NCBI GenBank assembly: GCA_028706715.1
Contig: JAQTVQ010000010.1
Location: forward strand, 1-32,885
Source of the DNA: Minisyncoccota bacterium
GTDB lineage: Bacteria > Patescibacteriota > Minisyncoccia > Minisyncoccales > JAQTVQ01
Length of the DNA stretch: 32,885 nt
Reading direction: 5' to 3'
Shown: piece after piece, positions 410-18,419 of the stretch
Position numbering within the stretch: the stretch's first letter is position 1
How the letters are laid out: each line of letters begins with the position of its first letter
Translations under genes and position numbers: made by a program
Notes under the pieces: generated by a model
The model's input: the letters and a program-made list of their open reading frames with translations, nothing else
The model's database searches: none
What the model was told of the DNA's origin: nothing

Positions 410-465
410 TTTTTAGATTTTGAGCTTTGGATTTGATTTGACATTTGGATTTTGACATTTGATAT
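410..465 (-). repeat. Right terminal inverted repeat of the four-helix-bundle cassette
   Basis: Read on the minus strand, this matches the left repeat. The exact 22-nt core is at 426-447 and carries a start codon (444-442) that again encodes MSNQIQ. Further imperfect copies of the CAAATGTCAAA-type unit extend to about 465. The minus-strand reading frame it opens runs antisense to the gene and is not credible as a protein. Confidence 0.7.
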
Positions 466-515
466 TAGATTCGGGAAAATAATTTTAATATTTTAAATTG
501 TCATTTTGATTTTTG

Positions 516-562: not shown

Positions 563-1639
563 ATGTTCCAAAAGATTTCCGTAATTTTATTATCTTTACT
601 TTTTATCCCTTTTTCGGTTTTCGCCGGGGGAGATTCTATTGGCTTGTCGGTCAGTCCTCAAAAATATGAATTGGATGTTTTTCCGGGAGAGAGCTTTGAT
701 TACAAGCTGGAAATTAAAAATTTAAGCGATTTGGCAATGCCGGTTAAAATAAGGATGGCCGACTTTAACGCTCTTGACGATACGGGAGAGATGATTTTTA
801 GCGAAGCCGAAAGCGTTTCCAGCCAATGGTTCGGCATTGATAACTCCGAAATAATTTTATCCGGGAAGGAAAAAAGAGAGGTTAGTTTTAGCTTTTCCAT
901 TCCCAATGAAGCGGAAAGGGGAGGATATTATAATGTAATGATTTTTGAGCCTCAAATGCCTTCTTACTACTTTAAAGAAGGCCGGCCCAAAGCCATTCCC
1001 GTTGTCGGCGTTTTATTTTTAATTTCAGTAAAGAATTTATCAATAGACAGCGAGGAAGAATTTTCTGGGTTGCAAATAGTGGAATTTTCCATTCCCAAAG
1101 AAGAAAGAGCGGAGGTCTTGGAAAAGATTGCCGGCGTTTTTTCTTCAAGGGGAGCGGCTTCCGTCCAAAGCGCTTATAATTCTTCAGCCTTGCCTTTTGC
1201 GGAAAAAACGCCTTCTTCTTTTTCCGTAAAAATTAAAAACAACGATTACTATCACCTTAAATCTTCAGGAAAAATAGTTATTTATGATATTTTTGGCAAC
1301 AAAGCAGGAGAGACCGACCTTAGCCAAAAAACCATTTTACCCGGGAGAACGAGATTGTTTAAGTCCGAATTTTTGCCTGAAATGCCTGGATACTTGAAGT
1401 GGCTGCCCGCCTCAATATCAAGTTTTTTCTTAAATAATTTCTTTATCGGGCAATATCAGGCGGAAGTGACAATGCAGGGAATAAATCCTGTATCGGGAGA
1501 AAATTCAGGATCAACGCAAAAATTTTCTTTTGCCGTATTCGCCTGGAAATTTTGGCTTCCGTTATTTATTATTGCGGTTTTGGCGCTGGTCTTGAGAAAG
1601 AGGATAGGCAAGGCCATATTGGCGCTGATTAAGAAATAG
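563..1639 (+). CDS. Membrane-anchored DUF916-like (WxL-associated) surface protein
   Basis: The 358-residue protein has a signal peptide (about 1-21, ending VFA|GG). A first beta-sandwich (about 25-140) carries the hallmarks of the DUF916 / WxL-protein peptidoglycan-binding family: GLSVSPQKYELDVFPGESF at the start and an IPNEAERGGYYNVMIF strand pair near its end. A second beta domain (about 145-320) follows, then one transmembrane helix (about 331-346) and a basic tail RKRIGKAILALIKK. The topology is N-out with a C-terminal anchor. A shorter relative lies at 3166-4122, on the other side of two small secreted proteins. In Gram-positives such proteins form surface complexes with WxL proteins; here the partner and ligand are inferred only. 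The ATG at 563 is the only start that preserves the signal peptide. Confidence 0.75.
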   Translation: MFQKISVILLSLLFIPFSVFAGGDSIGLSVSPQKYELDVFPGESFDYKLEIKNLSDLAMPVKIRMADFNALDDTGEMIFSEAESVSSQWFGIDNSEIILSGKEKREVSFSFSIPNEAERGGYYNVMIFEPQMPSYYFKEGRPKAIPVVGVLFLISVKNLSIDSEEEFSGLQIVEFSIPKEERAEVLEKIAGVFSSRGAASVQSAYNSSALPFAEKTPSSFSVKIKNNDYYHLKSSGKIVIYDIFGNKAGETDLSQKTILPGRTRLFKSEFLPEMPGYLKWLPASISSFFLNNFFIGQYQAEVTMQGINPVSGENSGSTQKFSFAVFAWKFWLPLFIIAVLALVLRKRIGKAILALIKK

Positions 1640-1881
1640 AAACTACCTAATAATTTTCAATGGTTAAAGTTCCAACGGAGAGGAGCCCATGAATTTCATT
1701 TTATTTTCTAAAAAATAACGAATAAACTGAATAGAAAGCTTAAAAAATCGGGGCAGAGTTATCCACAACCTTTCAAATAATTTTTATGTTATACTTATTT
1801 TAGATTATTCAAAGGTCTATCCATTATAAAATATAAATATTTTTTGGCTTGTTTATTAATCAAGCTGAAGAAAACAAGAAA
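1640..1881. other. 242-bp intergenic spacer with a consensus DnaA-box 9-mer
   Basis: This is AT-rich spacer without a convincing gene. TTATCCACA at 1759-1767 is a perfect match to the DnaA-box consensus, but it is single, so origin activity is unlikely. TATACT at 1790-1795 resembles a -10 element without a good -35, and could drive the two secreted paralogs downstream. Confidence 0.35.
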
Positions 1882-2493
1882 ATGGTTTATAAAAATACAA
1901 TTTTTGCCGGCGCAGGACTGTTTTCCGTTTTATTTGCAGTATTGCTTTTATCTGGAATAGTTTCTTTGCCTAATTTTGCTAATGCTTCTGAAACTGTAAG
2001 CGTTTCGGCAACCATAGAAGAATGGGTGAGTTTTGCCGTTTCTCCGACTACCACGGATTTGGGAACGTTGGTTGATGCCTCCGGAAATGTAAGCATCGGT
2101 TCGGCCACTTCCAGTTTGACTCTTAGCAGCAATAGTAGCGATGGTTATTCAGTTACTATTGAAGGCACGAACGGAGGATTAAACGGCAGCAACGGTGGAA
2201 CGATTGCCACTCCTGCTGCAGCAGCCACCACTACTTGCTCCGCTGCCGGAGACGGAACTGATGCCTACGGCGCGCAGGCAACTTCGACGACTTTAACGAT
2301 TCTTTCTCCTTTTAATGTAAGCGGAGACGTAGTAGGATCCGTAGCGGCCAGTTCGCAGAATCTTTTGAGCAGCGCTTATTCCACCAGCTCGCAATCAGCG
2401 ATTCTGACAGTTAAAGCCAGCGCCAACAAGTTTGATAAGAATGGTGCTTATACCGATACTCTGACCTTGACTGCCCTTCCTTCAGTCCCATAA
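1882..2493 (+). CDS. Small secreted beta-rich surface protein, paralog A
   Basis: The 203-residue secreted protein has a hydrophobic signal segment (about 10-34, NFANA|SE). An adjoining strand VSVSATIEEWVSF is followed by a Ser/Thr/Gly/Ala-rich, lysine-poor body consistent with an all-beta surface domain. There is no C-terminal anchor or LPXTG motif. A TTG 33 nt upstream would extend the frame, but the ATG at 1882 places a normal signal peptide at the N-terminus and is preferred. It sits in tandem with a close paralog and is flanked by two DUF916-like anchored proteins. That layout resembles Gram-positive csc surface clusters, in which WxL proteins pair with DUF916 proteins, but a true WxL motif is absent (WVS instead). 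Function unknown; structural surface protein inferred. Confidence 0.75.
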   Translation: MVYKNTIFAGAGLFSVLFAVLLLSGIVSLPNFANASETVSVSATIEEWVSFAVSPTTTDLGTLVDASGNVSIGSATSSLTLSSNSSDGYSVTIEGTNGGLNGSNGGTIATPAAAATTTCSAAGDGTDAYGAQATSTTLTILSPFNVSGDVVGSVAASSQNLLSSAYSTSSQSAILTVKASANKFDKNGAYTDTLTLTALPSVP

Positions 2494-2538
2494 ATTTGTT
2501 TTGGGCTGGAGTAAAACTATCATTGAAAATAAACTAGA

Positions 2539-3147
2539 ATGGAAACTATAAAAAATATTGCCATAACCAGCCTAGTCCTGTCTTTTTTTTCCATCTTTCT
2601 TTTAGGGCTGGCTGGAATTTTTGTGTTGCCTCATTCTGTTTCAGCCGAAGATATCAATGTTACAGCGACAGTTGAAGAATGGGTGAGTTTTGCCGTTTCT
2701 CCGACTACTACGGATTTGGGAACGTTGGTTGATGCTTCCGGAAATGTAAGCATCGGTTCGGCCACTTCCGGCTTAACTTTAAACAGTAACAGTTTTGACG
2801 GTTATTCTGTTTCCATCCAAGGTGCGAACGGAGGGCTGGAAAATGGCATTTATTTGATTGCCACTCCTGCTGCAGCAGCCACCACTACTTGCTCCGCTGC
2901 CGGAGACGGAACTGATGCCTACGGCGCGCAGGCAACTTCGGCGACTTTAACAGTGCAAAGCCCTTTTAACGTAAGCGGAGATGTGGTAGGATCAGTGGCA
3001 AGCAGCAGCTCTCAATCGCTTTTGAGCAGCGCTTATTCCACCAGCTCGCAATCAGCGATTCTGACAGTTAAAGCCAGCGCCAACAAGTTTGACGCAAGCG
3101 GTTCTTATTCGGATACTTTAACTTTAACTGCGCTTCCTAATCCATAG
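2539..3147 (+). CDS. Small secreted beta-rich surface protein, paralog B
   Basis: The 202-residue protein has a signal peptide (about 1-36, HSVSA|ED) and is collinear with its upstream neighbour over the whole mature part; Trp48 and the motif EEWVSFAVSP occupy the same positions. DNA identity between the paralogs is patchy. Blocks 2674-2769, 2857-2940 and 3019-3092 match 2017-2112 (two mismatches), 2203-2286 (identical) and 2362-2435 (identical). Signal peptides and intervening segments differ widely, including at synonymous sites. That suggests gene conversion or selection against drift in the blocks. There is no anchor, and a single cysteine in the mature protein (TTTCSAAGD). Function is unknown; it probably works with the DUF916-like protein that starts 18 bp downstream. 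Confidence 0.75.
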   Translation: METIKNIAITSLVLSFFSIFLLGLAGIFVLPHSVSAEDINVTATVEEWVSFAVSPTTTDLGTLVDASGNVSIGSATSGLTLNSNSFDGYSVSIQGANGGLENGIYLIATPAAAATTTCSAAGDGTDAYGAQATSATLTVQSPFNVSGDVVGSVASSSSQSLLSSAYSTSSQSAILTVKASANKFDASGSYSDTLTLTALPNP

Positions 3148-3165
3148 ATATTATTATTTAATTTT

Positions 3166-4122
3166 ATGAGAATAAAGAAAATACTGTTATCCTTTTTGTT
3201 TTTAGGAGGAATATTTTTTTCTCAGTCGGTTTTAGCTGAAGGAGGGATGGCTTTGGGTATTTCTCCTGCGGTTTTTGAAATTACGGCCAATCAGGGGGAA
3301 GTCATAGAAAATATAATCAGAGTCAATAATCCTACTGATAATATTGTTAATATAAAAATGACGGCGGAAGACATAGAGCCTAGCGGAGAACAAGGTAATG
3401 TCATAGTCAAAAATCCCGGAACGGAAAGCTATTCCATCGCTAGCTGGATTAAATGCGACCCGGAAACTTTTCAGCTCAATCCTAGAGAGGAAAGAAAAGT
3501 TAAATTTACCATTACGGTTCCTCAAAACGCAGAACCGGGCGGCCATTACGGAACAGTTGTCGCCGGTCCCAATGTTGTTGCCAGTTCGTCGGTGACAGGA
3601 GCCGCTATCGTTCCAAGAGTAGGAGCGGTTATTTTAATCAATTTGCCGGGAGAGAAGAAAGAGCAAATAATCGTAAAAGATTTTTATACCCAAGTTAAAG
3701 AAAACGGGGATAGGCCCTCTTTTTTCAAGACGAATTTTTTTCAATATCCTCCTGTCGGCTTTGCCGCAAAATTTGAAAACAAAGGCACTGTTCATATAAA
3801 ACCCGGTGCTTCCATCGTTATTACTAATTGGTTCGGCCAAAAAGTTGACCAAATTGAACTGCCGGCTCAAAATGTTTTGCCTAACGCTACCAGGATAATA
3901 AGCACCGAATGGAATGGTTCCAGTTTCAATTTTGGCCGATATACGGCGACTCTAGCCGGGGCATTCGGCACTTATAATACTCCTTTGTCTTCAAGTAATA
4001 TTATTTTTTGGATTTTTCCGATAAAAGAGATCCTTATCGCTTTAGCCATAATAATTTTCTTTATTTTTACAAGAAAAAGGTGGTGGACAGCCTTAAAGAT
4101 TATATTAACGGGTAAAAAATAA
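3166..4122 (+). CDS. Membrane-anchored DUF916-like (WxL-associated) surface protein
   Basis: The 318-residue protein has a signal peptide (about 1-24, SVLA|EG). A DUF916-like beta domain (about 28-140) contains GISPAVFEITANQGEVIENI, a Lys/Arg-rich loop before the last strand, and VPQNAEPGGHYGTVVAGP. A second beta domain (about 150-270) resembles the arrangement of the WxL host-binding half, followed by a transmembrane helix (about 283-303) and a short cytoplasmic RKRWW tail. It follows the small secreted paralogs by 18 bp, so co-transcription is likely. A strong hairpin terminator lies 40 bp after its stop. The DUF916 assignment rests on pattern similarity by eye and would need an HMM search to confirm. 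Confidence 0.75.
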   Translation: MRIKKILLSFLFLGGIFFSQSVLAEGGMALGISPAVFEITANQGEVIENIIRVNNPTDNIVNIKMTAEDIEPSGEQGNVIVKNPGTESYSIASWIKCDPETFQLNPREERKVKFTITVPQNAEPGGHYGTVVAGPNVVASSSVTGAAIVPRVGAVILINLPGEKKEQIIVKDFYTQVKENGDRPSFFKTNFFQYPPVGFAAKFENKGTVHIKPGASIVITNWFGQKVDQIELPAQNVLPNATRIISTEWNGSSFNFGRYTATLAGAFGTYNTPLSSSNIIFWIFPIKEILIALAIIIFFIFTRKRWWTALKIILTGKK

Positions 4123-4161
4123 CGGGTAAAAAAATAGAAAATTTATTCAATCTCCAACATT

Positions 4162-4190
4162 AAAATACACAGGTGCCACCTGTGTATTTT
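4162..4190 (+). terminator. Rho-independent terminator after the DUF916-like operon
   Basis: A 12-bp stem (AAAATACACAGG with CCTGTGTATTTT) closes on the 5-nt loop TGCCA and is followed by T and TAG. The A-run before and T-run after make it effective in both directions. It separates the DUF916/secreted-paralog block from the dockerin/cohesin block. Confidence 0.75.
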
Positions 4191-4211
4191 TAGTCTTGGA
4201 GGAATTTTTGT

Positions 4212-4217
4212 TATAAT
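4212..4217 (+). promoter_or_regulatory. -10 element of a near-leaderless promoter
   Basis: TATAAT is a perfect -10 hexamer ending 10 bp before the ATG of the dockerin gene. Transcription would then start within about 0-5 nt of the start codon, giving an almost leaderless mRNA. No good -35 is seen (TTTAGT lies at the expected spacing). Confidence 0.45.
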
Positions 4218-4227
4218 TAACCAATAA

Positions 4228-5169
4228 ATGGAAACCGTAATAAATAAACGGAAAATTTTTAATTTAACTTGCCTTTTGACAGATTTTTTTTGGGGGATTT
4301 TATTTGTCCTTTTTTTGTTTGTTCCTCCTCATAATGTTTTAGCTGAAGAGCCTCAAGTTAATATTTCTGTCCAAGCCAGCGTTCAAGACTGGCAGGCAAC
4401 CACAACTCCTCCTCTTCCGCCGGGCGGAGGAGGCGGCGGAGTTGTTATACCCGAGGTTCCTACAGCCAAAGTGATTTTTATCGGCCGCGCTTATCCCAAT
4501 GCCTTGGTTACGCTTTTAAAGAATGAAACAGTGGCTGCTACTTTTTTTGCCGAAAGCTCGGGAGTTTTTAGAAAGGAAATCTCTGCCGTTTCCGGAGGGA
4601 ACCAGACTTTCGGGCTTTGGGCGCAGGACAGCGACGGCCGCAAGTCGGTTACTTTAAGCTTCTCCGTGAGTATTCTTGCCAATGCCACAACAACAATTTC
4701 CGGTATTTTTATTTCTCCGACCATTGATGTCAATCCGATACAAGTGGAAAAAGGCAAAGATGTTGATATTTTAGGCCAAGCTTTTCCCGAAAGCCAAATT
4801 AAGATTTTTGTGCACTCAAAGGAAGTCGTTAAAGACGCGGCAGCGAGCAAAAACGGGAAGTGGGAATATAAGTTAAACACAGCGGCGCTGGAGGAAGGAG
4901 AGCATCAGGCTAAGGCGAAATCTTTGTTTGGAGAAGGGGAGCAAAGCTCTTTTTCCCAGTCTCTTTCTTTTTTGGTTTTGCGCAAGGGCGCTTTAGTTTG
5001 CAAGGGCGCGGATCTCAATTTTGATAACAGAGTCAACATTACTGATTTTTCCATTTTGCTTTATTTTTGGAACCAAAAAAAACCGGCAAATCCCTGTGCC
5101 GACATTAATTTTGATGGTATAGTCAATATAGTGGATTTTTCTATTATGATGTATTGGTGGACATCTTAA
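4228..5169 (+). CDS. Secreted Ig-like protein with C-terminal dockerin domain
   Basis: The 313-residue protein has a long signal peptide (about 1-39, NVLA|EE). The strand VNISVQASVQDWQ (44-56) resembles the mature N-termini of the two small secreted paralogs, and a Pro/Gly linker PPLPPGGGGGG follows. Two Ig-like beta domains (about 75-150 and 155-250) share the theme GRAYPNALVTL / GQAFPESQIKIF. The C-terminus is a type I-like dockerin with two calcium loops, DLNFDNRVNITD (262-273) and DINFDGIVNIVD (292-303). Each has D/N/D/N/D at loop positions 1, 3, 5, 9 and 12. Cys258 and Cys290 could form a disulfide. There is no membrane anchor. Three cohesin-bearing membrane proteins are encoded just downstream, so this is the likely soluble ligand that docks to them through calcium-dependent binding; the pairing itself is inferred. 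Confidence 0.88.
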   Translation: METVINKRKIFNLTCLLTDFFWGILFVLFLFVPPHNVLAEEPQVNISVQASVQDWQATTTPPLPPGGGGGGVVIPEVPTAKVIFIGRAYPNALVTLLKNETVAATFFAESSGVFRKEISAVSGGNQTFGLWAQDSDGRKSVTLSFSVSILANATTTISGIFISPTIDVNPIQVEKGKDVDILGQAFPESQIKIFVHSKEVVKDAAASKNGKWEYKLNTAALEEGEHQAKAKSLFGEGEQSSFSQSLSFLVLRKGALVCKGADLNFDNRVNITDFSILLYFWNQKKPANPCADINFDGIVNIVDFSIMMYWWTS

Positions 5170-5199
5170 TTTTTCAGTTAAGTTTTTCTCTGCAGGTTT

Positions 5200-6399
5200 A
5201 TGAAAAACATAATAAAAGCCGGCGCTTCAATTTTATTTGGATTGGCGCTATATTTTTCTTTTTGTTGTCCGGCAGCAGCGGCCGAATTGTATTTTGAGCC
5301 TCAAAACCGGACGATTCAGCAATGTGAAAATTTTACGGTTGAAGTTTGGCTGGACACGCAGGGGGAAAATATCAATGCCGTTGAAGCAAGCCTGCTTTTT
5401 TCCCAAGGAAAGATAGAGCTGGCTGATATTTCTCAAGGAGGATCGTTATTGGATCTTTGGCTGGTTGAACCGTCTTTTTCCAATCAAACAGGAGAAATAA
5501 ATTTCAGCGGAGGCATTCCAAACGGTTTTCAAGGAAAAGGAAAGATACTGTCCCTTGCCTTTAGCCCTGTTCCCGCGGAAGCGGACATAATTACTGCGCA
5601 GATTATTTTTCAAAACGGCTCCAAAGTTCTATTGAACGACGGCTACGGAACCGAAGCGTCTTTAACTTTTAAAACAGCTGATTTTGTGATAACGGCCGCA
5701 GCAAAAGACTTGCCGGTTATCATCTCTCAAACTCATCCCAACCAATCTTTTTGGTATGCAGACAAAAAGCCTCTTTTCTCTTGGGAGGCTGCGCAGGGGG
5801 CGGATTATTCTTACCAGCTTATCGGGTCGGATAAAAAGATTGTTGCTTCAGGAGAAAAAATAAAAACTAAAGAAGAAAACATTGCGTTGGATTTTGATTT
5901 AAGCGGCGAGAGCGACGGCGTATTTTATTTTTCTTTGCGCCAAAAACTTCCGGGGCAGGAATGGTCTCAAGAAGCGGCCCATTTCAGAATAATGGCAGAC
6001 ACCGTTCCTCCTGAAGATTTTTTTCCGCAGATAGGAAAAGATGAGTTTATCTCCGAGGGAAAATATTTCGTCAGCTTTGCGGCCAAAGATAAAACTTCAG
6101 GAGTTGATTATTATGAAGTGTCGGAAATTGACGATTGGGGAATTTTTGATTTTATAAATATAAATAAAAAAAACCTTGTTTGGCGCAAAGCTTCCAGTCC
6201 TTATTTGCTGGCAGACCAAAGTTTGAAATCAAAGATACTGATAAAAGCTGTTGATAAGGCCGGTAATGAGAGAATTGCCAAGGTAGTTCCGCCGAATAAA
6301 ACGGTTTATTGGCAGGCAGGAGTCCTATTATTAATATTAGTTATTTTAGTCGGGGCGATTGTCGTATTCAAAAAAAAGAAAATAAAAGTTAAGAAATAA
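5200..6399 (+). CDS. Membrane-anchored cohesin-domain protein 1
   Basis: The 399-residue protein has a signal peptide (about 1-27, PAAAA|EL). The cohesin-like domain (about 29-165) begins with YFEPQNRTI and contains NAVEASLLFSQGKIEL, a SLLDLWLVEPSFSNQTGEI segment and VLLNDGYGTEA near its end. Two further beta domains follow: a fibronectin/Ig-like one starting at THPNQSFWYADKKPLFSW (about 175-265) and one with DKTSGVDYYEV and AVDKAGN (about 270-365). One TM helix (about 370-389) and a short tail KKKKIKVKK end the protein. It is the first of three paralogs and probably a receptor for the dockerin protein encoded 30 bp upstream. It lacks the long cytoplasmic coiled tail found in the third paralog. 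Confidence 0.85.
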   Translation: MKNIIKAGASILFGLALYFSFCCPAAAAELYFEPQNRTIQQCENFTVEVWLDTQGENINAVEASLLFSQGKIELADISQGGSLLDLWLVEPSFSNQTGEINFSGGIPNGFQGKGKILSLAFSPVPAEADIITAQIIFQNGSKVLLNDGYGTEASLTFKTADFVITAAAKDLPVIISQTHPNQSFWYADKKPLFSWEAAQGADYSYQLIGSDKKIVASGEKIKTKEENIALDFDLSGESDGVFYFSLRQKLPGQEWSQEAAHFRIMADTVPPEDFFPQIGKDEFISEGKYFVSFAAKDKTSGVDYYEVSEIDDWGIFDFININKKNLVWRKASSPYLLADQSLKSKILIKAVDKAGNERIAKVVPPNKTVYWQAGVLLLILVILVGAIVVFKKKKIKVKK

Positions 6400-6503
6400 A
6401 ACTTCTAATCAAATCCCAAACCTTTTTTCTTAAATTGTATCGTTTTTATAAATTGGGATTTTGTTAAGCCAATCATAAATTAGGCTAATTAGAAAATTAC
6501 TGC

Positions 6504-7847
6504 ATGTTTCGGACTTCAAATCTCAAGAGAATATTTTCCATTTTTTTGACGGTTTTTGTCTTATCTTTGCTTTGTCCGAAAACAGCCGCCGCATCCGGCG
6601 CATCTCTATACTTGTCTCCCAACTCGGGAACTTTTTCTGTCGGATCAACTTTTGACATTTCAGTCTTTGTTAATACCGGATCGGAAGAAGTCAATACGAT
6701 TGAAGCAAGGCTTAAATTTGATCCCAAAAAAATACAGATTGTTAATCCTGCGGCTGGAAAATCATTTATTAATGTTTGGATCGCCCAGCCCAGTTACTCA
6801 AATGTTGCGGGAACTATTATTTTCCAAGGAGGAGTGCCTTCTCCGGGAATTAAAACTTCTTCTGGCTTGGTTTCTACGGTTACTTTCAGGGCAATTTCTC
6901 CGGGCCAAACTTCAATAGAATTTTTGGATTCTTCAAAAGTGCTTTTAAATGACGGCAAGGGGACCGATGTTTTAACTTCCAAGCCAAAGGGAACTTATGA
7001 AATAACCGTTCCTCCGCCCGAAGGTCCAAAAATTTTTTCACCCAGCCATACTGACCAAAACAAATGGTATCAAAATAATAATCCCACTTTTAGCTGGGAG
7101 GCTGAAGAAGGAGTGGAGGATTTCAGTTATATCTTGGATCGCAGCCTTTACGGCGCGCCCGATAATATTGGAGAGGGAAAAGAGACATCCGTTTCTTACA
7201 GCGACTTGGAAGACGGCATTTGGTATTTTCATATTAAAGCGAAAAAAGGAGGAAGCTGGGGAGGAATCAGCAGCTATCTTGCGCAAATAGACACCACTCC
7301 GCCGGCTGTCTTTGCTCCGTCCGCTAATCCTGTTTTAAGGCAGCCGAATTTAACGACTGGCCAGCCCATTATAACTTTTTTTACGACAGATGCTCTTTCC
7401 GGAACGGCCTACTACCAATTAAAAGTGATTGATTTGTCAGATACAGGCGAAGCCGGCACGGGATTTTTTGTGGAAGCAAGCAGTCCTTATAAAATATCAA
7501 AGCTTCCTGTGGGAGAATACGAAGTGGCTGTCAGGGCTTTTGACAATGCCGGCAACTGGCGGGATTCTTCAAAAAAAATAGAGGTTTTTGACTATCAGAA
7601 AGCTTTTTATTTTACTCAAAAGGGGCTGTCCTTTTTTAATTTTTTCTTTTCATGGATGGCTATCGCCGCTTTTATTTTGATTCTAGCGGCGGCAATTATT
7701 TTTTTCACTTGGATTTATTTGCGGAATTATAAAAAAATGAAAAAGAAAAGAGAAAAGCTGGAAGGATTGATAGAAAAAGCAAGATCGGGAAAGAATGCTT
7801 TGGAAGAAAGGCTGGAGGAAAATAATAAAATAAAAGAATCTTTATGA
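6504..7847 (+). CDS. Membrane-anchored cohesin-domain protein 2
   Basis: The 447-residue protein has a signal peptide (about 1-30) and a cohesin-like domain (about 31-170) with YLSPNSGTFSVGSTFDISV, NTIEARLKFDPKKIQIV, FINVWIAQPSYSNVAGTI and VLLNDGKGTDV. A fibronectin/Ig-like domain starting at HTDQNKWYQNNNPTFSW (about 178-265) and a domain with DALSGTAYYQLKV and AFDNAGNW (about 270-365) follow, then a TM helix (about 381-405) and a 42-residue charged helical tail. The stop overlaps the start of the next gene (ATGA), so translation is probably coupled. It is parallel in design to the cohesin proteins on either side. Likely role: dockerin receptor on the cell surface. Confidence 0.85.
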   Translation: MFRTSNLKRIFSIFLTVFVLSLLCPKTAAASGASLYLSPNSGTFSVGSTFDISVFVNTGSEEVNTIEARLKFDPKKIQIVNPAAGKSFINVWIAQPSYSNVAGTIIFQGGVPSPGIKTSSGLVSTVTFRAISPGQTSIEFLDSSKVLLNDGKGTDVLTSKPKGTYEITVPPPEGPKIFSPSHTDQNKWYQNNNPTFSWEAEEGVEDFSYILDRSLYGAPDNIGEGKETSVSYSDLEDGIWYFHIKAKKGGSWGGISSYLAQIDTTPPAVFAPSANPVLRQPNLTTGQPIITFFTTDALSGTAYYQLKVIDLSDTGEAGTGFFVEASSPYKISKLPVGEYEVAVRAFDNAGNWRDSSKKIEVFDYQKAFYFTQKGLSFFNFFFSWMAIAAFILILAAAIIFFTWIYLRNYKKMKKKREKLEGLIEKARSGKNALEERLEENNKIKESL

Positions 7848-8539
7848 GAAAAAAAACAGTTTTTTTAATGCTTTTGTTTTTAAGCATGGCACTTGGCGGT
7901 TTTGCTTCAGCCGAAGAAACGGCTCCGACGATTTCAATCAGTCCGGAAAATTATTTTGCCGGAGAAGAAACCCTTTATTTGCAGGGGAGAGCAGAGCCTA
8001 ACGCAAAAGTTTTTATTTTCTTGAGAGATATTGATGGGAAAGAAACAAAGAAATGGATAGTTCAAAGCAATTCCAACGGAGACTGGAGCCTCATGTCCAA
8101 AGACTTGGTTAAGGCAGGGGAGTATAAATTTTTTGCAGGATCCCAAAAAGGAGAAGAAATGTTTTTTTCAAAAGAAAAATCAATAGAAATTTTTTTAAAT
8201 GGAATTGTAATTTTTGGACTGGCAACAAGTTTTAAAAATTTAATTTATATATTGGCGGTAATATTGGCCGTTGCCGCTGTTTTTTTCGGAACAGTTATTT
8301 TTAAAATTGAAAAAGCCAAAAAAAGGATGCGGAAAGAAGTAAAAGAAGCGCGCGATATTTGCGGAATTGTTTTTGAAAACCTTCAAGAAAAAATCAAAAA
8401 AAGGATAGAGCTTATAGACAGCCAGCCCGGTTTCAATATAGAAGAAAAAAAAGCTTTTGATGATTTGAATAAATTTTTAAATGCCGCTTGTTCGTCAATA
8501 GAAAAAGAAATCTTAGACGTGGAGAAGCTAATAAAATAA
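7844..8539 (+). CDS. Ig-like single-span membrane protein with cytoplasmic helical tail
   Basis: The 231-residue protein has a signal peptide (about 1-24, FASA|EE), one Ig-like domain (about 28-120; GRAEPNAKVFIFL, NGDWSLM), a TM helix (about 130-152) and a roughly 78-residue charged helical tail. The tail (RKEVKEARDICGIVFENLQEK... then FDDLNKFLNAA) aligns with that of the 573-residue cohesin protein downstream, and the Ig domain resembles that protein's last extracellular domain. In effect this gene is the membrane-proximal half of cohesin protein 3 encoded separately. The ATGA overlap with the preceding cohesin gene suggests the two products assemble together. No cohesin is present. The shared tail could bind a common cytoplasmic partner (inference). 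Confidence 0.75.
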   Translation: MRKKTVFLMLLFLSMALGGFASAEETAPTISISPENYFAGEETLYLQGRAEPNAKVFIFLRDIDGKETKKWIVQSNSNGDWSLMSKDLVKAGEYKFFAGSQKGEEMFFSKEKSIEIFLNGIVIFGLATSFKNLIYILAVILAVAAVFFGTVIFKIEKAKKRMRKEVKEARDICGIVFENLQEKIKKRIELIDSQPGFNIEEKKAFDDLNKFLNAACSSIEKEILDVEKLIK

Positions 8540-8553
8540 TATTATATTTTTAA

Positions 8554-10275
8554 ATGAAAATAGAGCCGCTGAATTTAATCAATAGATTTTTCTTTTTTTC
8601 TCTTGCCCTTTTCTTTTTCGTTCCGTTTGGCGACGTTTTGGCGGATCAAGCCGATTTTTATTTATCTCCGGCCAGCGGGACATATGAGCCAAACAGTTTT
8701 TTTTCGGTTTTTGTAAAATTAAACGGAAACGGCAATCCGATTAATGCGGCCGAGGCGAAAATAAGCTTTGATCCCGGCCAGCTTTTTGTGTCCAGCATTT
8801 CCAAAGCCGGCTCTATTTTCAGCTTATGGACCAACGAGCCGGTTTTTTCCAATTCGCAGGGCAGCATTTCTTTCGGAGGGGGATCTCCTTTGGCATTTAA
8901 CGGCCAAGCCGGAACTATTATAAAAATAGTTTTTCAAGCCAAAAGTTCCGGCCAAGCCAAAGTTCGTTTTGCTTCAGGCGCAATTTTAGCCGCTGACGGT
9001 AGAGGAACCAATGTTCTAGGGGAAATGATTGGAGGAGCTTATAATTTAAAATTAAGCGGTGAAGCCATCCAGCCGGAGCAGCCTATTTTAGAGCCGGAAA
9101 TAAAAGAGGGTGCTCCTGACGCGCCGATTATCTTTTCCAAAACCCATCCCGACAGCTCCAAATGGTATAGCGATCCGAATGCTGAATTTTCTTGGCAGAC
9201 TCCATCGGATATTTCGTCCGTAAGGCTTTCAGCCGGAAAGAATGCTTCTGTCCCGCCGGAAGTATTATACGATTATGGTATCTCCGAGAAAAAGATGAAA
9301 GGGCTTGAAGATGGCGTTTGGTATTTTGCCGCTCAATTTAAAAATCAAATCGGATGGGGGAAAATATCCTCTTTCAAATTTCAGATAGACTCAAAACCGC
9401 CGGAAAAATTTAAGGTTCAAATTAAAGAAGGAGAAAAAAATTCAAACTCCCAGCCAACGCTAATTTTTGAAGCGAAAGATCAAACATCCGGCATTGACCG
9501 TTATGAAATAAAAATTGATCAGCAGGATTTTATTTCAACCAAAGAATCGGAATTTAAGCTGCCCCCGCAACCTTCCGGCAAGCATATTATAGAATGCAAA
9601 GTTTTTGATAAAGCGGGAAATTACGCTCTGGCAACCGTTGAAGCGGAAGTTACTTTATTGGAAGCTCCGAAGATTATTGAGTATCCCAAAGAATTGTATC
9701 CGGGAACTCCTCTTTTAATAAAAGGATCGGCTCCTTCTGGATGTTTGGTTAAAATTCATTTGCAAAACAAAAAAACGGGAGAAACGACAGGAGAAGCCGT
9801 AGTGAATAATAACGGAGAATGGTCTTATATTGATTTTTCAATAAAAGAAAGCGGAATTTATCGTATCTTTGCTTATACGGAAGACGGCGCCGGAGGAAAA
9901 AGCCTGCCGTCGCCAAAGATTACCGTCTTGGCAACGCGTCCTGTTTTTATCAGAATAGGAGACTTTTCAATCACTTGCTTAGCCTTGCTGATTATTCTGC
10001 TTGGACTGACTCTTCTTATTCTTTTTTACATATTTTTTGCTTGGAAAAAGAAAAAAGAAAAAACAAGAGAAGAAATATCCGAAGCGGAAAAAGCCTTAAG
10101 AAAGGCATTTAAGACTTTGAGGGAAGAAGCGAAAGAACAAATATCCCGGCTAGACGGCAAAAAAGGCCTTAGCAAAAGAGAGCAGCTTGTTTATGATGAC
10201 TTGACGGAATCTTTGAAGATAGCGGAAAGATATGCCGGCGAAGCGATTAAAGACATCAGCGATGAATCTAAATAG
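8554..10275 (+). CDS. Membrane-anchored cohesin-domain protein 3 with cytoplasmic helical tail
   Basis: The 573-residue protein has a signal peptide (about 1-31, VLA|DQ) and a cohesin-like domain (about 33-170) with YLSPASGTYEPNSFFSVFV, NAAEAKISFDPGQLFV, IFSLWTNEPVFSNSQGSI and ILAADGRGTNVL. A fibronectin/Ig-like domain starts at HPDSSKWYSDPNAEFSW (about 195-280). Next comes a domain with DQTSGIDRYEIKID and VFDKAGNYA (about 285-372), then an Ig-like domain (about 375-460; GSAPSGCLVKIHL, NNGEWSY). A TM helix (about 467-492) and an 80-residue highly charged helical tail complete it. It is the largest and most complete architecture of the set and ends the run before a bidirectional terminator. 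Likely a surface scaffold or receptor for dockerin proteins, with a cytoplasmic helical segment that may connect to internal partners. Confidence 0.87.
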   Translation: MKIEPLNLINRFFFFSLALFFFVPFGDVLADQADFYLSPASGTYEPNSFFSVFVKLNGNGNPINAAEAKISFDPGQLFVSSISKAGSIFSLWTNEPVFSNSQGSISFGGGSPLAFNGQAGTIIKIVFQAKSSGQAKVRFASGAILAADGRGTNVLGEMIGGAYNLKLSGEAIQPEQPILEPEIKEGAPDAPIIFSKTHPDSSKWYSDPNAEFSWQTPSDISSVRLSAGKNASVPPEVLYDYGISEKKMKGLEDGVWYFAAQFKNQIGWGKISSFKFQIDSKPPEKFKVQIKEGEKNSNSQPTLIFEAKDQTSGIDRYEIKIDQQDFISTKESEFKLPPQPSGKHIIECKVFDKAGNYALATVEAEVTLLEAPKIIEYPKELYPGTPLLIKGSAPSGCLVKIHLQNKKTGETTGEAVVNNNGEWSYIDFSIKESGIYRIFAYTEDGAGGKSLPSPKITVLATRPVFIRIGDFSITCLALLIILLGLTLLILFYIFFAWKKKKEKTREEISEAEKALRKAFKTLREEAKEQISRLDGKKGLSKREQLVYDDLTESLKIAERYAGEAIKDISDESK

Positions 10276-10412
10276 GCATTATGAAAAACAAAAACAAAGA
10301 AAAAAAAGAGGAGCAAGCGAAAAATTTAGAAAAAGAAAAAATCAGCTGAAAGGGGAAAGCCCACAGAGAAAAGAAGAACCTCAAACCGATCAAGAATTAT
10401 TTAGACAAAACA
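10276..10412. other. Spacer after the cohesin block; one very short Lys/Glu-rich reading frame
   Basis: ATG at 10281 opens a 22-codon frame (MKNKNKEKKEEQAKNLEKEK..., stop at 10347-10349) very rich in Lys and Glu. It is too short and too low in complexity to claim as a gene, although it begins only 5 bp after the preceding stop codon. Nothing else is recognised before the hairpin. Confidence 0.25.
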
Positions 10413-10439
10413 AAAACCGTTCTTTAAAAGAACGGTTTT
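10413..10439. terminator. Bidirectional hairpin terminator between cohesin block and tRNA-Pro
   Basis: An 11-bp stem AAAACCGTTCT / AGAACGGTTTT closes on the loop TTAAA. On the minus strand it begins 7 nt after the tRNA-Pro and is followed by TTTTTGTTTTG; on the plus strand it ends the cohesin transcripts. It serves two converging units. Confidence 0.75.
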
Positions 10440-10445
10440 ATCAAG

Positions 10446-10517
10446 TCGGGGTGCTGGGAGTTGAACCCAGGTCACAAGACCCCCAGCCTTGCATAATGGC
10501 CGTTATACGACACCCCG
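10446..10517 (-). tRNA. tRNA-Pro (anticodon GGG)
   Basis: The 72-nt cloverleaf has acceptor CGGGGTG/CACCCCG with discriminator A, anticodon stem CAAGG/TCTTG, a loop CTGGGGG giving anticodon GGG, a 4-nt variable region, and T-arm CTGGG-TTCAACT-CCCAG. The D-stem is weak (GTA/TAT type). The CCA end is not encoded. It would read CCC and CCU. It has its own promoter and shares a terminator with the convergent cohesin genes. Confidence 0.85.
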
Positions 10518-10531
10518 TAAAAGACAAATAA

Positions 10532-10560
10532 AGTTTAAATCTAAAAAAGGAAAGTGTAAA
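10532..10560 (-). promoter_or_regulatory. Promoter of tRNA-Pro
   Basis: On the minus strand, -35 TTTACA (10560-10555), a 17-bp spacer and -10 TAAACT (10537-10532) predict a transcript starting about 8 nt before the mature tRNA. Confidence 0.5.
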
Positions 10561-10568
10561 GCTTTCAA

Positions 10569-10596
10569 GCAAAAGCCGCGGAATTTTTCGCGGCTT
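10569..10596 (-). terminator. Hairpin terminator after bL28
   Basis: The stem AAGCCGCG / CGCGGCTT (10573-10580 with 10589-10596) has an AT-rich 8-nt loop. Read on the minus strand it lies 23 nt after the bL28 stop and is followed by TTTGCTTG. Confidence 0.6.
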
Positions 10597-10619
10597 GCTT
10601 TGTTTTTTGGACTTTTAAT

Positions 10620-10841
10620 TTATTTGTCTTTGGCTAAAGTTTTTATACATTTAGCGCAGATTAAAATTCTTTTTCCCGCGTATTCTTTGAACTTTGGATG
10701 TTTGATATCCTCGGGAATAGAAACCCATTGAAGATTGGGCTTCTTTCTGAATTTGGGAGAGGGGTTATATTTGCCTCGCAGCTTATTAAGCTTTCTCTCC
10801 ATATGCGAAGTTTTTTCACAAATTGGACATTTCTTTGCCAT
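10620..10841 (-). CDS. rpmB: Ribosomal protein bL28
   Basis: The 73-residue large-subunit protein is recognised from MAKKCPICEK at the start, the basic stretch LNKLRGKYNPSPKFRKKPNL and the conserved LQWV segment. It keeps a zinc-ribbon pattern: Cys5/Cys8 and Cys62/Cys65. Length is normal. It is transcribed opposite to the surrounding genes and divergent from the M50 protease gene, with a good promoter just upstream and a hairpin terminator after it. Confidence 0.93.
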   Translation of the reverse strand: MAKKCPICEKTSHMERKLNKLRGKYNPSPKFRKKPNLQWVSIPEDIKHPKFKEYAGKRILICAKCIKTLAKDK

Positions 10842-10849
10842 ACCGCAAT

Positions 10850-10878
10850 ATCTTATACCATTATGAATATTTTTTCAA
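10850..10878 (-). promoter_or_regulatory. Promoter of rpmB
   Basis: On the minus strand, -35 TTGAAA (10878-10873), a 17-bp spacer and -10 TAAGAT (10855-10850) lie close before the ATG at 10841. The predicted leader is only a few nucleotides long. Confidence 0.45.
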
Positions 10879-10929
10879 GAGCCGTGATCCGTGTTTTAAT
10901 TTTTAATATATTATGATAATAGAATAGTT

Positions 10930-11535
10930 ATGGAGATTGTAATAATTTTAATTTCATTAACGATTTTATTATTTTCCGTAATCTTGCATGAGGTTGCCCA
11001 TGGCACTGTTGCCTATATGCTCGGAGATCCCACTGCAAAGCTTTCCGGAAGGCTGACTTTAAATCCGTTGAAGCACTTGGATTGGACGGGCTCTGTTTTC
11101 CTTCCTTTGGTTTTGGTGATGATAAACTCTCCGATACTTTTTGGCTGGGCAAAGCCTGTTCCGGTCAATCCTTTTAATTTTAAAGACAAGAGATGGGGAG
11201 ATTTGAAAGTCGGAATTGCCGGAGTCGCCGTTAATTTTTTGATAGCGGTTTCCTTCAGTCTTTTGGCGAGATTTTTCTTCGTATCCGAAAGCTTTTTCGG
11301 CATTCTTTATTACATAGCCGTTATAAATTTCATTTTGGGAATATTTAATTTGCTTCCGATTCCTCCCTTGGACGGATCGCATGTTCTTTTCAGTCTTTTG
11401 GGCGACAGATTTTCCGAATTCAAAATTTTTATGCGGCAATACGGTATCTTTCTTTTGGTCGCTTTAATCTTTTTGGGGCTGGGATGGATTTTTGACTTAA
11501 GTTCGTTTCTTTTTTATCTGATTTCCGGGCGCTGA
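10930..11535 (+). CDS. Site-2-type intramembrane metalloprotease (peptidase M50)
   Basis: The 201-residue polytopic membrane protein has the catalytic zinc motif HEVAH (20-24) in the first helix, and the second metal-site motif N140-LLPIPPLD148-G. Between them are conserved GRLTLNPLKHLDW and the reentrant segment FGWAKPVPVNPFNF, typical of the compact YwhC/SpoIVFB-like branch that lacks a PDZ domain. About five or six hydrophobic segments are seen. It would cleave transmembrane substrates; which ones is unknown, though many single-span proteins are encoded nearby. It stands alone between bL28 and the ribosomal superoperon. Confidence 0.92.
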   Translation: MEIVIILISLTILLFSVILHEVAHGTVAYMLGDPTAKLSGRLTLNPLKHLDWTGSVFLPLVLVMINSPILFGWAKPVPVNPFNFKDKRWGDLKVGIAGVAVNFLIAVSFSLLARFFFVSESFFGILYYIAVINFILGIFNLLPIPPLDGSHVLFSLLGDRFSEFKIFMRQYGIFLLVALIFLGLGWIFDLSSFLFYLISGR

Positions 11536-11539
11536 TTAT

Positions 11540-11566
11540 TTGACATTTCCCTTTTTATTTGATAAT
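11540..11566 (+). promoter_or_regulatory. Probable promoter of the str-S10-spc superoperon
   Basis: A perfect -35 TTGACA (11540-11545) is followed by GATAAT (11561-11566, 15-bp spacing) or TAATTT (11563-11568, 17-bp spacing). It lies directly after the protease stop codon and leaves a roughly 120-nt leader before rpsL. Confidence 0.5.
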
Positions 11567-11613
11567 TTATCCTTTGTTAATCGCTTAACATTAATATATA
11601 TTTAATAATGGAT

Positions 11614-11628
11614 AAGCGCGAAGCGCTT
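11614..11628 (+). other. Small hairpin in the rpsL leader
   Basis: AAGCGC-GAA-GCGCTT forms a 6-bp stem with a GAA triloop, followed by GATTATTTTTAT. It could be a leader structure or attenuator, or a weak terminator of the protease gene. Confidence 0.4.
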
Positions 11629-11696
11629 GATTATTTTTATTGCAAGAATTAACAGGGATTAAAGAATTAAAAATTTTAGATTTCTAAAAAATAAAA

Positions 11697-12116
11697 ATGC
11701 CTACAATACACCAATTAATAAAAAAAGGAAGAAAGTCTCAAAAGGCGAAAAGCAAATCGCCGGCTTTGCAGTTTGCGTTTAACCCTATCAAGAATGCTCC
11801 CAAAGAATACAATTCTCCTTTTAAAAAAGGCGTATGCGTTAAGGTATTTACCACCACTCCCAAAAAGCCGAATTCAGCTTTAAGAAAAGTCGCCAGGGTC
11901 AAATTGTCCAACGGCATGGAAGTTGCCGCTTACATTCCGGGCATAGGCCACAAGCTGCAGGAACACTCAATAGTTATGCTTAGGGGAGGAAAGGTAAAAG
12001 ATTTGCCCGGTGTCAGGTATCATATAGTAAGAGGAGTTTTGGATGCTTCAGGAGTGGAAGGAAGAAAAAAACAGAGAAGCGCTTACGGCGCCAAGAAGCC
12101 GAAAGCCGAACAATAA
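11697..12116 (+). CDS. rpsL: Ribosomal protein uS12
   Basis: The 139-residue decoding-centre protein starts with [20 protein letters not shown] and has the invariant [19 protein letters not shown] and [12 protein letters not shown] segments (the sites of streptomycin-resistance mutations in other bacteria are lysine here, as in sensitive strains). An extended N-terminal loop before GVCVKVF makes it somewhat longer than the E. coli protein. It is the first gene of the str operon. No Shine-Dalgarno; the leader is A-rich. Confidence 0.97.
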
Positions 12117-12142
12117 TTTTTCTCAAAATTTAAACAATCGGT

Positions 12143-12175
12143 TGCCGCATCCATTTTTAAAAATATTTCGCGGCA
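12143..12175 (+). other. Hairpin in the rpsL-rpsG spacer, possible S7 regulatory site
   Basis: TGCCGC (12143-12148) can pair with GCGGCA (12170-12175) around an AT-rich loop that can itself pair (TTTTTAAAAA-type). In E. coli, S7 binds the S12-S7 intercistronic RNA to repress the operon. The 110-nt spacer here is one of the longer ones in the superoperon, so a similar role is possible but unproven. Confidence 0.3.
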
Positions 12176-12226
12176 TTGCTTTGCGGAAGATAAAAGTCAA
12201 TTAAATTATTTGAAATTAAAAACAAT

Positions 12227-12694
12227 ATGGCGTGCAGAAAAAACAAAAAAACAGAAATCCAGCCGGATCCTCTTTACAACGACATTGTAGTGGCTAAGTT
12301 TATAAACCACATATTAAAGAGGGGCAAAAAAACCGTAGCGCAAAAAATCGTTTACGGATCTTTTGACATAATTAAAAAAAATACCAAAAGAGAGCCGTTG
12401 GAAGTTTTCAGAGATGCCGTCCAAAATGTTTCTCCTCTTTTGGAAGTTAAATCAAAAAGAGTCGGCGGAGCCACTTATCAGGTTCCCACAGAAGTAAAAG
12501 GAGAAAGAAGATTGGGCGTTGCGATGAAATGGATTATTAATTCAGCAAAAGCTAAGAAAGGAAAAAAAATGGCCGAACATTTGGCTCAAGAATTAACAGA
12601 CGCCTCCGAAAATAAAGGAGAAGCAATCAAGAAAAAAGAGAACGCTCACAGAATGGCCGAAGCCAACAGAGCTTTTGCTCATTTTTCTTTTTAA
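12227..12694 (+). CDS. rpsG: Ribosomal protein uS7
   Basis: The 155-residue primary 16S-binding protein of the 30S head is recognised from PDPLYNDIVVAKFINHILKRGKK, RVGGATYQVP and KGEAIKKKENAHRMAEANRAFAHF. Length is normal. It starts with MACRKNKKTEIQ at an ATG with an A-rich leader, and lies 11 bp before fusA. Established role: nucleates assembly of the 30S head and can autoregulate the str operon in other bacteria. Confidence 0.97.
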   Translation: MACRKNKKTEIQPDPLYNDIVVAKFINHILKRGKKTVAQKIVYGSFDIIKKNTKREPLEVFRDAVQNVSPLLEVKSKRVGGATYQVPTEVKGERRLGVAMKWIINSAKAKKGKKMAEHLAQELTDASENKGEAIKKKENAHRMAEANRAFAHFSF

Positions 12695-12705
12695 TTTTTT
12701 AAAAT

Positions 12706-14820: not shown

Positions 14821-14840
14821 TATTTAAGAGAGCCGGCCGT

Positions 14841-15065
14841 ATGGATTTAAAAGATCTTAAAAAAATAATTGACGGAGACAATTCCAAGATTATAATCGTG
14901 GAGAACGGAGAACCGGTTTTTGTCGTGATGGATTTTAAGGAATACGGAAAAACAAAAGGATTGGCGGTTAAGGCTCCAACGGTTTCCAGCAGCCCAAGAG
15001 GGTTGCCGGACTCTGTCAAAGAACCCGCTGAAGAGCAGTTAAAAATTGAAGATTTGCCTTTCTAG
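14841..15065 (+). CDS. Small Phd/YefM-like protein with an SSB-type acidic tail
   Basis: The 74-residue protein starts MDLKDLKKIIDGDNSKIII, then VENGEPVFVVMDFKEY, which matches the N-terminal DNA-binding half of Phd/YefM antitoxins (…NG.P..V…..Y). The middle is Pro/Ser-rich and probably disordered. It ends IEDLPF, very like the tip of bacterial single-stranded-DNA-binding protein (…DDLPF/DDIPF), which recruits repair and replication proteins. There is no toxin gene next to it. It lies between fusA and tuf, 20 bp after fusA, so it is co-expressed with the translation genes. Antitoxin activity is doubtful; function unknown. Confidence 0.7.
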   Translation: MDLKDLKKIIDGDNSKIIIVENGEPVFVVMDFKEYGKTKGLAVKAPTVSSSPRGLPDSVKEPAEEQLKIEDLPF

Positions 15066-15152
15066 ATATTGATATTTGAGGCCGAAAAAGTTTGCTGATT
15101 GCTCCAATGAAAGAACTAGAAGAATTGATAAACGGATAAACGCTGTAAACTG

Positions 15153-15181
15153 TTGACTTTTTTAAAAAATTCCGTTAAATT
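15153..15181 (+). promoter_or_regulatory. Promoter upstream of tuf
   Basis: -35 TTGACT (15153-15158), a 17-bp spacer and -10 TAAATT (15176-15181) lie in the 266-bp fusA-distal spacer, about 150 bp before the tuf ATG. It would give tuf and the S10 operon their own promoter. Apart from this the spacer holds only AT-rich DNA and a 10-codon frame not regarded as a gene. Confidence 0.5.
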
Positions 15182-15331
15182 TATAAAGTAATAATTTAAA
15201 AATAAAAAATAAATCTTCCTTTACCTTAAAAAAAGTTTTGGAGGAAAATAAAAATTGAAACCCTAAGCTTAAAGCTTGAAACTTAAAAGTTCCAACTTTA
15301 TGCTTTGCGCTTGTTTCATCATAACAACCCT

Positions 15332-16531: not shown

Positions 16532-16543
16532 ATGGAAAGGAAT

Positions 16544-16568: not shown

Positions 16569-16588
16569 AAATAGTTCTTTTGAAGAAA

Positions 16589-16933: not shown

Positions 16934-17023
16934 AAAGCTTTAAATATTTACCAAAGAAAGAAAAATTATTATGAATTTTTCTGTCTAATTTAATAAAGAA
17001 CACAAGGTACTAGCTTTAATAGG

Positions 17024-18410: not shown

Positions 18411-18419
18411 AATTGGCAT

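Follow-up and report, generated by a model that had tools for sequence, protein, structure and literature searches.

The window, by which we mean the whole analysed stretch of 32,885 nucleotides (contig JAQTVQ010000010.1 of a Minisyncoccota genome), contains a block of genes, W1 through W9, that begins at position 563 and runs on into the upstream contig; these genes and all features given below with coordinates lie on the + strand. The order in the block is a giant EW protein, a WxLIP-like protein, small EW proteins, a second WxLIP-like protein, the dockerin protein and the cohesin proteins. A possible promoter (TTGACA-17-GATATT, by consensus scan only) is present 5' of the block at 438..466, and a possible terminator (a 10-pair stem followed by a T-rich stretch, by pattern scan only) 3' of it at 10573..10596. 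An earlier note on this DNA gave the coordinates of the dockerin and cohesin genes correctly, and the genes in the block that it bounded at 4228..10275 are real, but that block lacks its upstream half, which consists of 563..4122 and the neighbouring contig. A longer, conserved locus has the dockerin and cohesin genes as its latter half and a WxL-like pair as its first. Membrane topology of the locus proteins is by hydropathy.

The EW and WxLIP-like genes

Genes W1 (563..1639) and W4 (3166..4122) encode WxLIP-like proteins, each with a signal peptide, two Ig-like domains and a C-terminal membrane helix. Between them lie W2 (1849..2493, start codon uncertain) and W3 (2539..3147), whose small secreted products are identified by the EW family profile and are 84% identical over the compared stretch. 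WxLIP_PGBD matches 20 of the 22 WxLIP-like family members (best 2.1e-9), and HBD is found in one member only. W1 is matched by the family profile at 361 bits and weakly by WxLIP_PGBD (E 0.042), and W4 scores 20.3 bits with WxLIP_PGBD, under the cut-off of 27.3. Sequence searches find no solved structure for either the WxLIP-like or the EW family; the best solved-structure match of the WxLIP-like model is 9i25, the Enterococcus faecium WxLIP bound to WxL, and a fused W3 plus W4 model (EW with WxLIP) has a pTM of 0.84. The Pfam WxL family matches none of 26 EW domains.

A giant EW-tailed protein of 5403 amino acids with an RCC1-type propeller is encoded just upstream, on a neighbouring contig joined to the window by a 127-bp contig overlap. 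Small and large EW proteins are encoded in genes adjacent to the WxLIP-like W1 and W4, and the order is the same in relatives. The EW/WxLIP half of the locus probably works like a Gram-positive WxL cluster.

The same genes could be read as building and anchoring a "Pam pilus", with the EW proteins as pilins, the WxLIP-like proteins as membrane chaperones or platform, and the dockerin-cohesin pair fixing the base or carrying a tip protein. The NCBIfam model NF058581 (CPR_Pam_pilin_C) matches 18 of the 26 EW domains (best 1.1e-15) and PamT matches four, and the protein of one relative passes the NF058581 cut-off with 152 bits, but among the EW proteins of the window only W3 gives a score (full-length and weak, 11.9 bits against a cut-off of 55), and PamT exceeds its cut-off in none of 147 relatives and is absent from this genome. 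Two fimbrial chaperones, CsuC and CfaA, turn up lower in the fold matches to the WxLIP-like model, to which the WxLIP complex is the better match. The N-terminal strand that W5 shares with the small EW proteins (see below) would suit donor-strand polymerisation; EW domains also cap proteins of 1000–5400 amino acids, an arrangement that suits anchored adhesins. A literature search found no paper on Pam pili, and we consider a pilus possible but rather unlikely.

The dockerin protein

Gene W5 (4228..5169) encodes a 313 amino acid secreted protein that has an EW-like N-terminal strand, a Gly/Pro linker, two Ig-like domains (Big_6, 6.9e-8, and Big_13) and a dockerin (4999..5163), and carries no membrane anchor of its own. 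It had been described from the sequence as a secreted protein ending in a textbook dockerin, and this is correct; Dockerin_1 (PF00404) matches residues 262–307 at 27.5 bits (cut-off 22.9), and both calcium loops, DLNFDNRVNITD and DINFDGIVNIVD, are intact, their ligands being the conserved columns among relatives. The two dockerin repeats are 64% alike, and the profile matches the solved cellulosomal dockerins 2y3n, 2mte and 1daq (best 4.2e-8). This is the sole dockerin of the genome.

The N-terminal strand, a motif that was defined post hoc on sequences already seen, is present in 12 of 14 small EW proteins and in 29 of 49 dockerin proteins with a WxLIP gene upstream, compared with none of 41 dockerin proteins without one and seven of 227 cohesin proteins. 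Since the strand of W5 is that of the small EW proteins, W5 probably enters the EW/WxLIP half of the locus.

The cohesin proteins and W8

The three cohesins of the genome are those of W6, W7 and W9, each of which has a single C-terminal membrane helix. W6 (5200..6399; class 1) has a signal peptide, a cohesin domain (5281..5691), an Ig-like part and, after the helix, a short Lys-rich tail; W7 (6504..7847; class 2) has a cohesin domain (6600..7004) and a short charged cytoplasmic tail; and W9 (8554..10275; class 3) has a cohesin domain (8650..9048), Ig-like domains including Big_13, and a conserved cytoplasmic coil. The classes of W7 and W9 are taken from the tree, on which the cohesins form three positional classes (24 label changes, compared with 92 when shuffled). 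W8 (7844..8539) has an Ig-like domain, a membrane helix and a conserved cytoplasmic coil, and has no cohesin. The helix-plus-coil tails of W8 (8252..8527, tail profile 94 bits) and W9 (9988..10260, 93 bits) are kept in relatives.

W7 (28.2 bits) and W9 (31.6 bits) exceed the Pfam Cohesin (PF00963) cut-off of 24.1, and W6 is below the reporting limit of that model. A profile built solely from cohesins that are neither from the window nor in first position gives W6 116 bits (E 1.6e-36), and the best of 2000 shuffled versions of the W6 domain reaches 8 bits on it. The predicted W6 cohesin (pLDDT about 97) has cohesins as its top Foldseek matches (1g1k, E 1.8e-9, TM 0.81 on target), and the cohesin profile matches the solved cohesins 4ums, 1g1k and 2vn5. 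The profile search proposed in the earlier note is therefore positive with Pfam for W5, W7 and W9, and W6 requires a profile of its own family. The motifs named there (YLSP/YFEP and others) are cohesin family consensus, and its picture of three cohesin-bearing, single-span membrane proteins beside one secreted dockerin protein is accurate; a cohesin at the start of the gene is found in W6, W7 and W9, but not in W8.

Occurrence and gene order in relatives

Both domains are present in 101, or about a quarter, of the 380 genomes of a phylum-wide sample (Fisher p 4e-33), in which 30 of 131 dockerin genomes have no detected cohesin and 38 of 139 cohesin genomes no detected dockerin. Of 148 genomes sampled from the order, 47 have a cohesin and 39 of these also a dockerin; in 35 of the 39 the two are at most 10 kb apart on the same strand. 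A contig search with the dockerin alignment gave 219 loci, a set from which records at or very near the genome of the window may be absent. Cohesin genes are near the dockerin in 72 of 80 dockerin loci, nearly all of them from Patescibacteria. The EW-WxLIP-EW-WxLIP-dockerin-cohesins order recurs in many loci, and the gene order that was to be looked for in related genomes is indeed conserved in related Patescibacteria. In cohesin-free loci the protein in the W5 position usually has a C-terminal membrane helix, although the helix is not clear in all seven of these proteins; such proteins are equated with the dockerin proteins by position, except in locus L197, where similarity is significant (7.6e-5).

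Proposed pairing of the dockerin with the cohesins

A fused model of the dockerin and the W6 cohesin, with the W6 signal peptide as linker, gives both domains a pLDDT of about 95–98 and has no PAE; its alignment held 18 naturally in-frame neighbour pairs, with stops read through as a modelling device. The pTM is only 0.64, so docking is unsupported by the AlphaFold model. Once the WxLIP background is accounted for, dockerin distances still follow those of the class 1 cohesins (partial r 0.33, p <0.001) and of the class 3 cohesins (partial r 0.33, p 0.013); the same mirror-tree test found no correlated divergence of class 2 cohesins with dockerins. The mirror-tree values are modest.

The two domains might be true homologues of cohesin and dockerin and yet not pair here, the cohesins being generic adhesive domains and the dockerin capping W5 or binding another partner. 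The fused model without confident docking, the cohesin-only and dockerin-only genomes, and the dockerins on proteins outside such loci would all fit. We nevertheless think non-pairing improbable in view of the strong co-occurrence and adjacency of the domains, the conservation of both calcium loops, the likeness of the dockerin repeats, which is expected of a two-fold binding face, and the correlated divergence of dockerins and the cohesins of classes 1 and 3.

Proposed function

We favour, at a probability of roughly 0.6, a reading in which the genes form a single conserved surface locus with two ligand-receptor modules, one WxL-like and the other cohesin-dockerin, that are coupled through W5. 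In the first module the membrane-anchored WxLIP-like W1 and W4 are predicted to hold the EW ligands W2 and W3 and the giant EW-tailed adhesin; in the second the cohesin receptors W6, W7 and W9 would be sockets for the W5 dockerin. W5 is most likely a two-ended adaptor between the two modules, whose N-terminal strand would enter the first module and whose dockerin would, with calcium, enter the cohesins. The dockerin-cohesin plug may then be a releasable membrane anchor for W5, in place of a membrane anchor of its own. The whole probably serves to keep an adhesive surface layer or fibre attached to the cell, and W8 and W9 apparently reach the cytoplasm through their conserved coil.

A released W5 might instead link cells: cohesins on one cell would bind dockerin proteins carried by sibling cells or by a host. 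The lack of a membrane anchor in W5 and the surface exposure of the cohesins, as judged by topology, would fit this, but the exchange of W5 for a membrane-anchored protein at the same position in cohesin-free loci favours action in cis, and we judge such linking between cells quite improbable. A cellulosome or other enzyme-display system has the same two domain families, and the expressed cohesin and dockerin genes of a CPR genome (Ca. Shapirobacterales) have been read that way (PMC9123182), but Pfam finds neither catalytic nor carbohydrate-binding domains among the genes of the block and the dockerin proteins of seven relatives have no enzyme or carbohydrate-binding domain, there is no tandem-cohesin scaffoldin in the locus and only one dockerin in the genome, and, as no enzyme is present, we reject this reading as very improbable, in agreement with the earlier note, which had seen no glycoside hydrolase.

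The two-module reading can be extended, tentatively, to Patescibacteria at large. Across the group a WxL-type surface apparatus may have taken in a dockerin-cohesin pair that gives it a membrane anchor in two detachable parts. An adaptor with an EW-type strand and a dockerin would then link giant adhesins, or a fibre, to cohesin receptors of three ancient classes, some of which would signal or tether inward by the coil. If true, this way of assembling a surface would be previously undescribed, and the apparatus would be a candidate for the machinery with which much of the CPR attaches to hosts. Work on host attachment in the CPR has so far centred on type IV pili. The exact domain pairs, whose binding is measurable with purified proteins, bring the surface assembly of an uncultured group within reach of experiment, and the locus corrects the habit of calling cohesins and dockerins from CPR metagenomes cellulosomes (PMC9123182).

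Comparison with known systems

The domains are homologous, by profile and fold match, to those of the cellulosomal type I cohesin-dockerin pairs of Clostridium and Ruminococcus; unlike those systems, the locus has no enzymes or tandem-cohesin scaffoldin, and has one cohesin per single-span membrane protein and a dockerin on an Ig-domain protein behind a WxL-like module. Gram-positive WxL clusters (small WxL, large WxL and WxLIP; Hassan et al. 2023, PMC10599100) likewise place small and large ligands beside WxLIP-like proteins, which here have 318–358 amino acids, two Ig domains and a membrane helix. The present locus differs in that the EW domains have no detectable Pfam WxL match, there are two WxLIP-like genes, the large EW protein is the 5403 amino acid propeller protein, and dockerin-cohesin genes are appended. 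Of the CPR "Pam pilus" proteins (NCBIfam NF058581 and NF058579), the pilin has a C-terminal domain to which the EW domains are related, and cohesin-free loci such as L193 and L197 hold EW and WxLIP-like genes; the EW proteins of the window are, however, far under the Pam cut-offs, PamT is lacking, and dockerin-cohesin genes are absent from the named Pam families seen.

Cohesins and dockerins outside cellulosomes are on record (Peer et al. 2009, as cited in PMC10066038), and SEML1_0315, a Southlakia dockerin protein, is essential and needed for epibiotic growth of the saccharibacterium (PMC10633639). A 2026 review of the Minisyncoccota makes no mention of cohesin or dockerin. The earlier suggestion that the arrangement appears undescribed holds for the locus, in the literature searched, but not for the domains, which have already been reported in the CPR and other ultra-small bacteria. 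As in the non-cellulosomal cases, the dockerin here is on a surface protein outside a cellulosome; those reports concern single proteins, whereas here a conserved operon-like locus combines the two domains with receptors of three classes and with a WxL-like module.

The dockerin and cohesin genes

The block contains nine genes, W1 through W9 in order, all on the forward strand, and the gene calls and coordinates of the earlier note are correct. The dockerin that it claimed at the C-terminus of W5 (4228-5169) matches the Pfam family at 27.5 bits (cut-off 22.9), and of the claimed cohesins those of W7 and W9 exceed the Pfam cut-off of 24.1 bits (28.2 and 31.6 bits, respectively). W6 (5200-6399) is missed by Pfam, yet is identified as a cohesin (1.6e-36) by an independent profile made from the cohesins of other genomes alone, with first-position cohesins left out; shuffled versions of the domain (n = 2000) reach at most 8 bits. 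The cohesin family profile finds the solved cellulosomal cohesins 4ums, 1g1k and 2vn5, the dockerin family profile finds the solved cellulosomal dockerins 2y3n (4.2e-8), 2mte and 1daq, and the best matches of a W6 cohesin model are solved cohesins (1g1k, E 1.8e-9, TM 0.81 on target). W5 through W9 all start with a hydrophobic stretch that resembles a signal peptide; hydropathy predicts an additional membrane helix in W6 through W9. W8 (7844-8539), which sits amid the cohesin proteins, lacks a cohesin; its Ig domain is followed by a membrane helix and a cytoplasmic coil. The coil is conserved and ~70 residues long; it comes after the membrane helix in W8 (8252-8527), W9 (9988-10260) and most last-position cohesin proteins, and is free-standing in some relatives (6048-6362 in locus L098 and 9907-10203 in L216). 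By consensus match only, a promoter-like pair lies ahead of W1 and a terminator-like stem at 10573 follows W9. Downstream lies an M50 protease gene (10930-11535), and the stretch from there to 28521 holds ordinary housekeeping genes, apparently rpsL/rpsG/fusA/tuf and the main ribosomal protein cluster up to secY, adk and map.

The larger locus

In related genomes the same gene order, which the earlier note had proposed to look for, occurs often but within a longer fixed series. This runs from a large protein that ends in an EW domain through a WxLIP-like (WX) protein, a small EW protein and a second WX protein to the dockerin protein, followed by between one and six cohesin genes, of which the final one usually encodes the cytoplasmic coil as well. 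Here W1 (563-1639) and W4 (3166-4122) are the WX proteins and W2 (1849-2493) and W3 (2539-3147) the small EW proteins. The locus joins cohesin and dockerin genes to a WxL-like surface cluster, a combination that is widespread in Patescibacteria; what the earlier note observed is upheld, and its reading as a cohesin-dockerin surface system had the right direction but covered half of the locus.

The large EW protein is absent from the window only because the contig ends there. In the same genome, contig C6 closes with an open frame for a 5403-aa EW-tailed protein (2574-18782 of stretch L228), and the final 127 bases of C6 match the first 127 of the window exactly, the usual sign of neighbouring contigs, so C6 probably adjoins the window start. 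This giant has an HTH_17 motif near its N-terminus, an RCC1-type propeller and the C-terminal EW domain. HTH_17-like segments also occur at the start of, or beside, giant surface proteins in loci L193 (7185-8270) and L198 (2445-3464), an odd combination of a DNA-binding motif with secreted giant proteins. Between the giant gene and W1, an open frame truncated by the contig start (2-409) resembles by eye the four-helix-bundle proteins often inserted in gene clusters.

The single dockerin and three cohesins of this genome (755 kb, 97% complete) all lie inside the block. Among 148 genomes of the order, 39 have both domains, 8 cohesin alone and 25 dockerin alone (p 2e-11), and among 380 genomes sampled across the phylum 101 have both, 38 cohesin alone, 30 dockerin alone and 211 neither (p 4e-33), p-values that are overstated because related genomes are not independent samples. 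Kinship notwithstanding, the adjacency is plain: in 35 of the 39 two-domain genomes of the order the cohesin and dockerin genes lie on one strand at most 10 kb apart, and the dockerin gene is almost always the upstream one. A dockerin search of GTDB genomes gave 219 loci; 72 of the best 80 have cohesin genes within the fetched stretch, and several of the remainder end near the dockerin. The records are from Nealson-, Falkow-, Zambryski-, Kerfeld-, Giovannoni-, Staskawicz-, Taylor-, Terry-, Kaiser-, Portnoy-, Doudnabacteria and other Patescibacteria, and two carry labels outside those groups. These Patescibacteria-type loci, on contigs filed under Bacteroidia (L166) and Methylomirabilis (L159), are more likely misbinned than transferred. 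Loci L078, L083, L102 and L063 encode cohesin-dockerin fusions beside separate cohesin proteins, possibly as chain-forming units.

Cohesin classes and proposed dockerin pairing

The cohesins sort into three positional classes, first, middle and a last class that carries the coil (24 changes of label along the tree versus 92 expected by shuffling), and W6, W7 and W9 represent one each. With the WX background removed, dockerin distances correlate with those of class 1 (45 loci) and class 3 (25 loci) cohesins, partial r being 0.33 in both cases, and do not correlate with those of class 2. In a fused model of the W5 dockerin and W6 cohesin both domains fold very well, but docking is not seen (pTM 0.64). 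Pairing of the W5 dockerin with the cohesins of the locus is thus putative, backed by genetics rather than structure. Two-way binding is known for type I dockerins, and the 64% likeness of the two dockerin repeats would allow it here.

W5 is probably an adaptor between the two halves. Its mature N-terminus (VNISVQASVQDW) is similar to that of the small EW proteins (INVTATVEEW), and a simple pattern finds this N-terminal strand in 12 of 14 small EW proteins, in 7 of 227 cohesin proteins, 1 of 102 WX proteins and 14 of 597 others, evidence weakened by the choice of the pattern after inspection of the sequences. Dockerin proteins have it in 29 of 49 cases with a WX gene upstream versus 0 of 41 without, a contrast not built into the pattern, between groups that also differ by lineage. 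In seven cohesin-free loci akin to the NCBIfam CPR "Pam pilus" families, the W5 slot holds a secreted protein with the strand in four and a C-terminal membrane helix in most; one of the seven resembles dockerin proteins significantly by profile. The W5 dockerin would then stand in for direct anchoring to the membrane.

Function

A CPR genome has been reported to express cohesins and dockerins, interpreted there as a cellulosome (PMC9123182). Such a role is disfavoured here because no enzyme domain is present in the block or in the seven dockerin proteins sampled from relatives, whose recognised domains are Ig-like or MG2. The most likely role is adhesion or the anchoring of a surface layer, and a part in host attachment is possible, though hypothetical. 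Southlakia requires a dockerin protein for its epibiotic growth (PMC10633639), and an adhesin role has been proposed for giant dockerin-containing proteins of Omnitrophota (PMC10066038). The suggestion that such a locus appears undescribed holds for the literature searched (no preprints and few subscription papers), where we found no description of the combined locus.

Comparison with WxL clusters

Pfam WxLIP_PGBD is matched by 20 of 22 WX proteins (best 2.1e-9), W4 falling below the cut-off at 20.3 bits, and the NCBIfam CPR Pam pilin domain by 18 of 26 EW domains (best 1.1e-15), W3 scoring 11.9 bits (cut-off 55). W3 and W4 share one reading frame and so were modelled through the stop as a single chain, purely as a modelling device. 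The model (pLDDT 86.5, pTM 0.84) appears to place EW confidently against WX, a reading drawn from the pTM, since the WX part is only ~60% of the chain. Among solved structures it most closely matches the E. faecium WxLIP-WxL complex (9i25) and free WxLIP (9i1y), with fimbrial chaperones ranking lower. Unlike WxL clusters, the locus has EW domains that do not match Pfam WxL (none of 26), so we term its first half WxL-like rather than a WxL member. Its layout equals that of the WxL clusters defined by Hassan et al. 2023 (PMC10599100), which comprise a small WxL protein, a large one whose N-terminal part carries binding domains, and a WxLIP built from two Ig-like domains plus a membrane helix.
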